Positions 27,385 to 30,368 of a DNA stretch of 45,668 nt are shown here, piece by piece; the first letter of the stretch is position 1; each line of letters opens with the position of its first letter. Below the pieces are notes generated by a model. It worked only from the letters and a program-made list of their open reading frames with translations. It did no database searches and was not told the origin of the DNA. The DNA is taken from positions 1 through 45,668 of the forward strand of contig JAURWD010000263.1 of the NCBI GenBank assembly GCA_030655145.1. Reading direction: 5' to 3'. A program made the position numbers and the translations under genes. This DNA comes from Ferruginibacter sp. GTDB lineage: Bacteria > Bacteroidota > Bacteroidia > Chitinophagales > Chitinophagaceae.

Positions 27385-27549
27385 CGCATTCGCCTCTGCA
27401 GCCGGCGGGGCTGCGTCATTGCAACGGCGCTGCTTTCTCTTCTTTAAAAAATCTCGCTGCGCTCGATGTTTTCAATCTCGATTCCATCGGGACCGAACCG
27501 AAAGATGCGCCTTATGCAACGACTGGTGCGAGAAATGCAGAGTCAAATT
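27385..27549. repeat. 165-bp GC-rich direct repeat, copy 1
   Basis: About 85% identical by eye to the copy at 27630-27795. It contains a GCAGCC/GGCTGC hairpin near its start. Both copies share a nearly invariant 3' part of about 55 bp starting at ACCGAACCGAAAGATGC. The copies differ by one net base in the middle, so no reading frame is shared along the whole unit; this speaks against a protein-coding repeat. It is markedly more GC-rich than the surrounding AT-rich sequence. Confidence 0.75.
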
Positions 27550-27579
27550 GTTTCACTCATTGACTCTAACTTTTTTTTT
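27539..27579 (+). terminator. Intrinsic terminator-like hairpin at end of repeat copy 1
   Basis: Arms AGAGTCAA (27539-27546) and TTGACTCT (27560-27567) with a 13-nt loop, followed by a run of nine T at 27571-27579. This is a good plus-strand intrinsic terminator. The 5' arm is the last part of repeat copy 1, so the repeat itself may be the end of a short transcript. Copy 2 has the 5' arm but not the T-tract. Confidence 0.55.
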
Positions 27580-27629: not shown

Positions 27630-27795
27630 CGCATTCGCCTCTTCCGCCGGCGGGGCAGCGTCATTGCAACGGCGCTGCTTTCGCCTCATTGAAAATTCTC
27701 GCTAACGCTCGATGTTTTCAATGCCGACTTCGTCGTCACCGAACCGAAAGATGCGCCTTATGCAACGACTGGTGCGAGAAATGCAGAGTCAAATT
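27630..27795. repeat. 165-bp GC-rich direct repeat, copy 2
   Basis: Second copy, starting CGCATTCGCCTCTTCCGCC and ending GCAGAGTCAAATT. Differences from copy 1 fall mainly in the stem-like early part and the middle (CGACTTCGTCG here instead of the CGATT..CATCG part of copy 1), where a hairpin can still form. No gene follows until the IS element. Between 27796 and 28084 I see no gene, only a 14-bp palindrome at 28051-28064. Confidence 0.75.
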
Positions 27796-28084
27796 TTGAA
27801 AATTATTTACTTTCCAATTTTGTCATTGTGATGAGCGTTTTGTTGGTTTTGATAAACTGTTCGCCGACGAATGAATGAGATGTAGAACGGTAACAAAATC
27901 ACGAAGAAGGAACTGGTAAAAGCGGTAGTTGGGAGTTTCGAATCTGGGTAAACTTTTCAACCGAAGCCAGAAGTACAAGACGCTTAGGTAAACTAAGACT
28001 TTGGAAATCGCGGAAGATCACAGGTACAGGGTGAGAAGGATTAACTTATCAATGACATGTCATTTAAACTGTCGTGGGCGGGCC

Positions 28085-28116
28085 GGTCAAAAAAGGCGGA
28101 GCCATTTTTTTTGACC
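28085..28116. repeat. Hairpin at the edge of the 182-bp tandem array
   Basis: GGTC-A6-GGC (28085-28097), GGA loop, then GCC-A-T8-GACC (28101-28116). The two sides pair almost perfectly, with an extra A and two extra T on the right. The right arm is the first part of the tandem repeat unit, so the array begins with half of a hairpin whose other half is outside it. Confidence 0.55.
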
Positions 28117-28283
28117 TTGATTTTTTTTGTTACTTTTTTTTATCTAAGAAAAAAAAGTAAATAAACTGTTCATAAGTGGACGGATATTTAGCCACAGCAT
28201 TAACTGCCTTTAGGCGAGGCGATATGATAAAGTCGAGTTGATAAGTCCAATGGAAAATGGGTCAAAGATTTCTTCATGTAAAT
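28102..28283. repeat. 182-bp tandem repeat, unit 1 (intact)
   Basis: Unit begins CCATTTTTTTTGACCTTG. It carries a 12-bp-arm hairpin TTACTTTTTTTT (28130-28141), loop ATCTAAG, arm AAAAAAAAGTAA (28149-28160), and ends in GATTTCTTCATGTAAAT. Unit 2 begins exactly 182 bp later. On the minus strand each unit has a short ORF starting at the CAT in CCATTTT (about 23 codons, reading MDLHEEIFDPF); I do not claim it is expressed. Confidence 0.85.
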
Positions 28284-28298
28284 CCATTTTTTTTGACC

Positions 28299-28326
28299 TT
28301 GATTTTTTTTGTTACTCCTATGTTTG
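28299..28326 (+). promoter_or_regulatory. Bacteroidota-type promoter across the IS110 left junction
   Basis: TTG at 28299-28301, a 17-nt spacer, and TATGTTTG at 28319-28326, a perfect TAnnTTTG match. The upstream box lies in the target repeat and the downstream box in the first 10 bp of the IS. Transcription would begin near 28331 and run through the bridge-RNA candidate into the recombinase gene. In a circular form of the IS the right end would supply TTG at 29689-29691 with a spacer of about 20 nt. Confidence 0.6.
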
Positions 28327-28330
28327 TAAT

Positions 28331-28546
28331 AGGTAAAATAGTTCTTTAAAATAGTGTTGAGATACCAATAATTTTAGATTAAAAGTGAAAGTATGAGAGT
28401 TCATTTTGTTACAAGCAACCTTTAGGTATGCTGGAAAAAAGAAATAACCTCATACTTTTTTATCTCTTGGAATTTGAACAGAATGTAAGGAAGCATGCTT
28501 GGTGCTATCCTGAATATCCTGCAGGAGAAAAAATGAAGAGGGATAT
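28331..28546 (+). ncRNA. Candidate IS110 bridge RNA
   Basis: Two consecutive stem-loops lie upstream of the recombinase. First: stem AAAGTATGAG (28388-28397) with CTCATACTTT (28449-28458), extended inward by GTT/AAC. Its loop holds TTTTGTTAC (28404-28412), identical to the left target 28307-28315, then hairpin AGCAACC-TTTA-GGT-A-TGCT (28414-28432), then AAAAAAG (28435-28441), complementary to core plus right target CTTTTTT. Second: stem CTCTT (28464-28468) with AAGAG (28536-28540). Its loop holds ACAGAAT (28478-28484), identical to the IS right end 29701-29707, a bulged-A hairpin (28488-28511), and AGGAG (28523-28527), complementary to core plus IS left end CTCCT. Order and layout match target-binding and donor-binding loops of IS110 bridge RNAs. 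RNA ends are estimates. Confidence 0.75.
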
Positions 28547-28573
28547 CACTTTTTGTACTTTAAAAACATTGGT

Positions 28574-29599
28574 ATGAAAAAGCTTGTAAAACAGATTTTA
28601 GGAATTGACGTAGGTCAAAAAGAATTAGTTGTTTGTTTGGGAAGGATGACGGAAGACTGGGCACCGGAGCTATATGCCAGTAAAGCATTCCCCAATAGTC
28701 TTAAAGGTTTTAATGCCATGGAAGTCTGGGTAAAGAAATTGGTTGACCCCGACGTACCACTTCGTTTTGTAATGGAAGCAACAGGTGTCTACCATGAATC
28801 ATTAGCTTATTATTTATGCGACCAGCAATATGCCGTAAGTATTGTGCTTCCAAACAAGGTCAGCAATTACTTCCGTACGTTGAAGGTTAAAACCATCAAT
28901 GATCAGACCGCTTCACAGGCAATTGCACTTTTTGGACTGGAAAGAAAACTTGAAGATTGGAAACGTCCTAACCCGGTTTACAAGCGGTTAAGGCAACTGG
29001 TAAGAGAGCGTGACCAGTTGATACAGGAAAGAACGATTGTAAAAAACCAGTTACATGCTGAAAAATCAGAAGCCGAACCGGGTGGAACCAGTCTGCTGCG
29101 AATGAAAAAGCGAATAACGTTATTGGATAAACAGGAAGTAGAAATCAAAGAGGAAATACAGCGCATTGTGAAAAAGGATCCGAAAACAAACGAAACTGTA
29201 CAACTGATCAGTACTATACCTGGCATAGGAACATTGACAGCAGTAACTATACTTGCAGAAACAAATGGCTTTGAATTGATCCGAAATAAGCGACAGCTAA
29301 CGAGTTATGCAGGATTAGATGTAGTAGAAAAGCAATCAGGCACATCCGTAAAAGGCAAACCGAGGATATCAAAGAAGGGGAATAAATACTTACGTAAGGC
29401 GATGTATTTTCCTGCATTGTCAGTTATGAGATATGATGAACGGTTTAAAGCACTTTTTGCCAGGTTGGTATCAAAAAATGGGATCAAGATGAAAGCCGGA
29501 GTAGCAGTACAAAGAAAGCTACTGGAAATGACCTACACCATTTTTAAAACTCACCGACCTTACGATAAAAATTATTTGAACAAAGCAGAGGCGGTATAA
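28574..29599 (+). CDS. IS110-family recombinase (transposase)
   Basis: Catalyses RNA-guided excision and insertion of the element. The ATG at 28574 (MKKLVKQILGIDVG) is preferred over an in-frame TTG at 28553 because it starts the RuvC-like domain directly. N-terminal DEDD-type domain: Asp12 (GIDVG), Glu68 (VMEATGVYH), Asp110 (KTINDQ). The usual fourth acidic position is occupied by the QTASQAI stretch (Ala113/Ser114). A coiled-coil-like linker (about 135-200) leads to the C-terminal transposase domain (LISTIPGIGTLTAVTILAE, LTSYAGLDVVEKQSGTS, RISKKGNKYLRKAMY), with Ser255 in QSG as likely catalytic serine. 341 aa is a normal family length with no frameshift, so the gene looks intact. Codon use is more AT-rich than the flanking CAZyme genes. 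Confidence 0.93.
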   Translation: MKKLVKQILGIDVGQKELVVCLGRMTEDWAPELYASKAFPNSLKGFNAMEVWVKKLVDPDVPLRFVMEATGVYHESLAYYLCDQQYAVSIVLPNKVSNYFRTLKVKTINDQTASQAIALFGLERKLEDWKRPNPVYKRLRQLVRERDQLIQERTIVKNQLHAEKSEAEPGGTSLLRMKKRITLLDKQEVEIKEEIQRIVKKDPKTNETVQLISTIPGIGTLTAVTILAETNGFELIRNKRQLTSYAGLDVVEKQSGTSVKGKPRISKKGNKYLRKAMYFPALSVMRYDERFKALFARLVSKNGIKMKAGVAVQRKLLEMTYTIFKTHRPYDKNYLNKAEAV

Positions 29600-29857
29600 A
29601 TAACTAGAAAAATTAAAGCGATCATACACTGACCGCTCTAAACAGGCTGGCTTGTGCCGCCTAAAGAACAAAATTAAAAAAATTAGTATTGGTTCTTAAC
29701 ACAGAATCTTTTTTTATCTAAGAAAAAAAAGTAAATAAACTGTTCATGAGTGGAAGGATATTTAGCCACAGCATTAACTGCCTTTAGGCGAGGCGATATG
29801 ATAAAGTTGAGTTGATAAGTCCAATGGAAAATGGGTCAAAGATTTCTTCATGTAAAT

Positions 29858-30031
29858 CCATTTTTTTTGACCTTGATTTTTTTTGTTACTTTTTTTTATC
29901 TAAGAAAAAAAGTAAATAAACTGTTCATGAGTGGAAGGATATTTAGCCACAGCATTAACTGCCTTTAGGCGAGGCGATATGATAAAGTCGAGTTGATAAG
30001 TCCAATGGAAAATGGGTCAAAGATTTCTTCA
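29858..30031. repeat. 182-bp tandem repeat, unit 3
   Basis: Near-identical to units 1 and 2 but one A shorter in the hairpin right arm and lacking the last few bases (it ends GATTTCTTCA). It contains an intact copy of the IS110 target (TTTTGTTACT at 29881-29890, core CT 29889-29890). After it the sequence diverges for about 70 bp. Confidence 0.85.
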
Positions 30032-30097
30032 ACTGCATTTATGTATGCTGGCTAATCGTAAGTCGGAATTGGTAACCTCACTGAAGAATGTATCAAT

Positions 30098-30158
30098 GAT
30101 TTCTTCATTCAAATCCATTTTTTTGACCTTGATTTTTTTTCTAAGAAAAAAAGTAAAA
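30098..30158. repeat. Degenerate partial copy of the 182-bp repeat
   Basis: Shares GATTTCTTCA, AAATCCATTTTTTTGACC and TTGATTTTTTTT with the full units, then jumps directly to CTAAGAAAAAAAGTAAA, having lost the GTTACTTTTTTTTAT part. It thus lacks the IS110 target. It marks the right edge of the array. Nothing else is recognisable between it and the next gene. Confidence 0.6.
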
Positions 30159-30368
30159 AGACTCTTCGAAAAGGCGCATCCTCAAATACAGGTTCCAAAG
30201 TATGCATGGAAGCTTTATAAAAAAACATAGCTACACTGGATGTTTACAACCCAACCAACCCCAGCAAAAACCCAAAAGCGATTAAACAAAAACCATCTTT
30301 TGTTAACTTTTAAAAAAGTAATAAGACACGCTCCGCAGGATTGGCACGAAATTATCATTAAGTTATAT

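Follow-up and report, generated by a model that had tools for sequence, protein, structure and literature searches.

The locus described here raises the question of whether the non-coding left end of an insertion sequence encodes an RNA that specifies both the landing site and the ends of the element, and whether the adjoining recombinase can act with a reduced set of catalytic acids. The window, that is, the whole 45,668-nucleotide stretch analysed (contig JAURWD010000263.1 of Ferruginibacter sp., assembly GCA_030655145.1), contains an element for which an initial annotation made from the letters alone had proposed an IS110 bridge RNA carrying target and donor guides. That proposal is supported by covariation, by a sister element and by a comparative fold, and it is concluded with high confidence that the element is an insertion sequence of the IS110 group whose long left end encodes a bridge RNA. 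A bridge RNA beside its recombinase is a kind already published in 2024; the pair in the window is probably active and of the published type, with a reduced acid set in the protein.

The ends of the element were set by comparison with uninterrupted copies of the host repeat in which it lies (28102-28155 and 29858-29911), an independent comparison. The empty site reads ..TTTTGTTA-CT-TTTTTTT.. and the inserted element CT-CCTATG...ACAGAAT-CT; relative to the uninterrupted copies the insertion is centred on the CT core, with no duplication beyond CT, and relatives of the element have the same kind of ends. The element and its flanks are as follows.

28315..29707, forward strand: IS110 element, which begins with the left core CT (28315-28316) and ends immediately before the right core CT (29708-29709)
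28102..28314, forward strand: host repeat to the left of the insertion, forming the left half of the target, with 31 matches in the genome
29708..30152, forward strand: host repeat to the right of the insertion, in tandem copies, identified by repeat comparison

Written out, the predicted target of the bridge RNA is TTTTGTTACTTTTTT (also as TTTTGTTACTTTTTTT) and the predicted donor is ACAGAATCTCCTAT (also as ACAGAATCTCCTATG). The non-coding ends measure 259 nt on the left and 108 nt on the right, and the RNA lies in the left one; by sequence, this longer left end and the RNA within it place the element in the IS110 group and not in IS1111. The surrounding region (28102-30167) is an array of 181-bp repeats with a palindromic end, TTACTTTTTTTT...AAAAAAAAGTAA, again with 31 matches in the genome.

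All four guides proposed in the initial annotation could be read directly from the sequence at the coordinates given below.

28404..28412, forward strand: left target guide TTTTGTTAC, a copy of the left flank at 28307-28315, matching its own flank at 7 of 7 positions
28435..28441, forward strand: right target guide AAAAAAG, the complement of CTTTTTT at 29708-29714, matching 5 of 5 positions beyond the core
28478..28484, forward strand: left donor guide ACAGAAT, a copy of the right end at 29701-29707, conserved in loop 2 and in right ends
28523..28527, forward strand: right donor guide AGGAG, the complement of CTCCT at 28315-28319

None of 18 other left flanks matches the left target guide as well as its own flank does. 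The A-tract match is weak when taken alone, as had been conceded from the start, with 1 of 18 other right flanks scoring equally. Pairing of the left target guide reaches only the C of the core, the next base being A where T is needed, and the left donor guide ends short of the core (GT in the RNA versus CT in the DNA). The AG opposite the core is invariant in the right target guide (21/21 elements). A28514-U28515 may also be used by the right donor guide, discontiguously, as in IS621.

Relatives were used to determine whether guides and insertion sites change together. Twenty-one non-identical elements, including that of the window, were collected, their ends were located by conserved letters, and their bridge regions were aligned. 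Each guide was scored against the flank of its own element, with 1 for a pair and 0.5 for a wobble; for the left guide the best-scoring offset on the left flank was taken, and for the right guide the position was fixed and covered the five bases of the right flank beyond the invariant core. Identical copies (L038, L102, L111, L113, L115), an element with a duplicated loop (L101), a distant one (L043), and those whose left end was not found (L104, L084, L048-L051) were left out of the guide counts. The left guide scored a mean of 6.05 of 7 (permuted flanks, 3.95; n=19; 7/19 perfect) and the right guide a mean of 4.5 of 5 (permuted, 1.88; n=19; 12/19 perfect). On either side permuted flanks reached the own-flank score in 0 of 20,000 trials, which bears out the claim that the matches exceed chance, and dropping near-duplicates (17 left and 15 right elements remaining) left the result unchanged. 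The element of the window scored 7/7 and 5/5. Copies inserted at different sites but unchanged in loop 1 would have contradicted the initial annotation; instead, different sites go with different target loops, which match their own sites in most cases, while the donor guides are nearly constant among near relatives. As judged from the alignment, loop 1 can pair with each of the two target strands and changes along with them, as a bridge RNA does.

The same behaviour was found within a single genome. A second IS110 element in the genome of the window (contig C221) encodes a protein 64% identical to the window's recombinase and has the same ends and donor guides; its target, ATAAGGCGC-CT-CTTTCGG, differs and lies in another host repeat, and its loop 1 (TATAAGGCGCCT and GAAAGAG) matches that target. 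The decisive case envisaged earlier, a related copy at another site with an altered loop 1, is thereby realised in favour of the bridge RNA. The exact 14-base sister target has one uninterrupted match in the genome search, on the sister's own contig. Two copies (89% alike) of a second host repeat were observed in the window at 27500-27565 and 27746-27811, and their letters resemble the sister's target. A covariance model of the RNA gave two matches in this genome, each adjoining a recombinase at the left end, and thus no solitary bridge RNA was found there with the model. In another genome (G513), five copies identical over 1402 bp occupy five sites, every one with GGCTGT-CT-AAAAAG; nine uninterrupted exact matches of this pattern were found, and none of its reverse.

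On the donor side, left ends begin with CTCCT in 17 of 21 elements, all with AGGAG in loop 2, and with CTCGT (L042, L088, L063) or TTCGT (L089) in the remaining four, all with ACGAG. These four lie outside a well-supported group of 29 rows in the protein tree that holds the other elements, and the matched change of donor end and loop 2 is probably one evolutionary event, for which reason the donor covariation is thinner than that of the target. In the sequences compared, loop 2 can pair with the donor and covaries with it, again as in a bridge RNA. The donor-loop handshake base fitted in 10 of 19 relatives (6.5 expected; 381 of 20,000 permutations as good).

The RNA had been described as two stem-loops, each split by a hairpin with a bulged A on its 3' side; both are present, and their helices are supported over the 21 elements.

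28387..28459, forward strand: target-binding stem-loop, with a 13-pair helix (95.9% of cells paired) and an unpaired A28398 in the stem
28414..28432, forward strand: hairpin splitting loop 1, with bulged A28428 and two-sided changes at 6 of 7 pairs
28462..28544, forward strand: donor-binding stem-loop, with 95.2% of the cells of its closing helix paired
28489..28510, forward strand: hairpin splitting loop 2, with bulged A28507 and two-sided changes at 7 of 8 pairs
28381..28388, forward strand: 5' strand of an outer helix whose partner is 28546-28553; the target stem competes for the final two bases of this strand
28546..28553, forward strand: 3' strand of the outer helix, pairing with 28381-28388

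The consensus structure comprises 39 pairs, with 95.6% of cells paired and two-sided changes at 31 of the 39. None of 500 shuffles reached any of five measures, and slid partners lowered pairing to 45-52%, although the structure was derived from the alignment on which it was tested and is favoured over slid versions for that reason. The covariation of the two split stem-loops supports, at the level of sequence, their assignment to a bridge RNA. In IS621 both modules contain flipped-out A nucleotides (PMC11208158), to which the bulged A's of the window's RNA may correspond. The outer helix closing both loops has at least 6 contiguous base pairs in 20 of 21 elements, with a mean energy of -9.7 kcal/mol for own strands versus -7.3 for foreign ones, and in five elements (L039, L116, L042, L088 and L063) all 20 foreign partners fall short of the own one. 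A single-sequence energy fold of 28326-28573 gave -55.4 kcal/mol (z -2.43), a value equalled or bettered by 4 of 200 shuffles. The expectation that the guides stand open was borne out in part: all four lie in internal loops in the comparative fold. In the minimum-energy fold the right donor guide and all six A's of the right target guide are free of pairing, but part of each left guide is buried. An Rfam scan of the window gave no match at the gathering threshold, and the two mir-1 matches below it were at chance level.

Several observations weigh against the bridge RNA reading. In the energy fold, four bases of the left target guide (28404-28407) are taken up by pairing with 28441-28444, and 28516-28521 engages five of the seven bases in the left donor guide; the free RNA may therefore need protein or DNA to open them, and confidence is slightly lowered on this account. 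In the window the element's own outer helix has no advantage over foreign combinations, 10 of 20 foreign 3' strands being equally good, and the element's donor-side handshake base, A, does not fit target base 7, also A. The left guide fits poorly in L034 and L035 (4 of 7) and L036 (4.5), with further misses in L064 (5) and L088 (5.5), and in L103 a score of 6 requires a shift out of register; on the right, the one miss is the guide of L060 (0.5 of 5). The 14-base target pattern, reversed, is also present twice in the genome. Finally, the copy could be inactive, since its recombinase has alanine at the position equivalent to D105, mutation of which kills IS621 activity. As a separate observation, the right flank of L060 starts CTCCTATC, resembling its own left end, and is perhaps a rearranged junction.

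Two accounts of the left end that dispense with guiding were also considered. It could be a structured 5' leader regulating recombinase expression, the guide matches being incidental; the region does lie directly upstream of the gene, and the outer helix stops about 20 nt before the ATG, but a leader accounts neither for helices that persist although loop 1 differs from one insertion site to the next nor for the matched change of donor end and loop 2, and this explanation was judged very improbable. Even less credence was given to loop 1 having been copied from target DNA as a by-product, with no guiding of insertion. The left guides are indeed copies of the flank, yet the right guide is a reverse complement across the hairpin, so a single copying event cannot produce both, and the five identical elements of G513 carry one loop and sit in five sites that all match it.

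The protein was compared with known members of the family.

28574..29599, forward strand: IS110 recombinase of 341 aa, with PF01548 and PF02371 above cut-off and matches to IS621 and ISCro4

It has the RuvC-like (PF01548) and Tnp (PF02371) domains of the IS110 family and retains D12, E68, D110 and S255, the last being the conserved catalytic serine in the Tnp domain, but lacks the full DEDD tetrad, the fourth acid being replaced by A113; for this reason it is regarded as a variant by homology and anatomy and not as a strict DEDD recombinase. IS621 D105 aligns to A113 without gaps, the printed chain numbers being offset by two. Among the best 120 of 7719 proteins (window included), the fourth position is Ala in 115, Ser in five and Asp in none, and D12, E68, D110 and S255 are kept in 120/120. 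In a tree set of 55 loci, all 21 with at least 45% identity lack the Asp (A 14, S 3, C 3, M 1), and 33 of the 34 below 45% have it. Nine duplicates, matches shorter than 240 aa and matches with a stop were left out of the tree, in whose 67 rows those without the Asp form one clade of 33 (support 99/98), apart from the distant L071. This last (genome G058) is an IS110 protein of 27% identity in which the fourth acid is also gone (DDRSAS), apparently independently. A search for a compensating acid, among columns acidic in the clade loci but mostly not outside, returned candidates that include E163 (21/21 clade loci versus 3% of 32 outside) and E318 (90% of 21 versus 0/32), neither of which is claimed as compensating; at position 115, close to the lost acid, 83 of the best 120 proteins have E and the window's protein has Q.

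In IS621, mutation of D11, E60, D102, D105 or S241 abolishes recombination (PMC11208158). With the equivalent residue essential there and absent from all clade loci of the tree set and from the best 120 proteins, the bridge RNA could be real and the clade recombinase catalytically dead, moved in trans by an Asp-bearing IS110 helper. Such helpers could exist in G513, which has 23 PF01548 matches: five are the identical copies, and all nine that were checked of the other 18 bear the Asp, but these are only about 30% identical. No PF01548 match outside the clade was found in the genome of the window (two matches) or in G055 (one). The ratio of nonsynonymous to synonymous substitution rates (dN/dS) is 0.06 and 0.09 in two close clade pairs, similar to the 0.10 of an Asp-bearing pair, the Ala codon is kept or synonymously changed in the two clade pairs, and the remaining catalytic residues are invariant among the best 120 proteins. 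Low dN/dS and the five identical copies in G513, where a helper is possible, suggest live elements, and dependence on a helper was considered unlikely. We infer that D12, E68 and D110 with S255 would suffice. On balance it appears somewhat more likely than not that a large Bacteroidota bridge-recombinase clade, including the window's protein, recombines without the fourth RuvC acid; the metal-site Asp (IS621 D105) would have been lost at the base of the clade, giving Ala, Ser, Cys or Met, and the IS110-specific Asp (IS621 D102, here D110), which holds the serine loop, would have taken over part of the metal and water coordination. No report of fourth-acid loss in an IS110 clade was found in literature listings limited to openly accessible papers, which is no proof of novelty.

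Conserved boxes at the two ends would form a promoter in the circular form of the element.

28319..28326, forward strand: TATGTTTG, predicted -7 element, part of the promoter that circularisation would create at the junction, from sequence, conservation and the consensus TAnnTTTG
29689..29692, forward strand: TTGG, predicted -33 element in the right end, which the circle would place 20 nt from TATGTTTG

Left ends of relatives carry TATGTTTG or TATGTTTA, and right ends (n=20) carry TTG 19 to 17 bases before the core (T 20/20, T 19/20, G 19/20). Bacteroidota promoters are described in PMC6847099 and PMC7366714 as -33/-7 promoters (TTTG / TAnnTTTG), with the -7 box at -12 to -5. The junction would form a promoter of this type, and the published placement would put the transcript start at 28331. 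IS621 likewise forms a promoter at its circle junction.

The ends, target, guides, comparative fold, guide-target covariation and conserved junction boxes, all read from the letters, fit a cycle of circle formation, transcription, binding and recombination that may run as follows. Excision would join the ends of the element into a circle, bringing the right-end -33 box to the left-end -7 box, and the resulting Bacteroidota-type promoter would drive expression first of the RNA, starting near 28331, and then of the recombinase. The partners of loop 1 would be both strands of TTTTGTTA-CT-TTTTT in the dispersed host repeat, and loop 2 would pair with ACAGAAT-CT-CCT(AT) at the circle junction. Strand exchange at the CT core would be carried out by recombinase dimers through S255.

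Compared with known systems, IS621 (IS110 group, E. coli; PDB 8WT6-8WT9) has D105 at the fourth DEDD position, where the window's recombinase has A113, and sigma-70-like junction boxes, whereas those of the window's element are of Bacteroidota type; the ISCro4 transposase (PDB 9T56) also keeps the D. For ISEc21 and seekRNA (IS110 and IS1111 types), PMC11187229 describes a non-coding region on which circle formation and the choice of target depend, and a promoter at the circle junction, as predicted here; its elements are from E. coli and have -35/-10 junction boxes, and the paper nowhere uses the word stem Bacteroid. The change in the active site and, less surely, the outer helix and Bacteroidota-type junction promoter appear to set the element apart from the known type; other IS110 RNAs are said to be structurally diverse, so the outer helix may not be new.

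Further observations concern relatives. The left end of L101 (about 340 nt upstream of the gene) has two tandem target loops, which share their left guide but differ a little in the right one; a single donor loop follows, and the whole is perhaps a bridge RNA with two target loops. The left end of L039 contains a long palindrome, CCTCCATGTTTGTTGGGG..., resembling the element's own end letters. L127 (G055) is an extra truncated left end of the L124 kind at a second site with a near-identical left flank, with no recombinase found adjoining. A scan of viral contigs found no close relatives, and a plasmid scan gave seven records with relatives of 37-39% identity (E 1e-60).

For the family, the small folded RNA can be read as an address label for the landing site and for the element's own ends, as is known for IS110. 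The guide code is readable by eye and accounts for the insertion sites, and the clade would thus offer Bacteroidota bridge systems. The two sister elements, with the same donor guides and different target loops, would represent natural reprogramming inside one genome. Because mutation of the corresponding residue abolishes recombination in IS621, the missing acid would provide a sharp test of what the composite RuvC-serine site needs.
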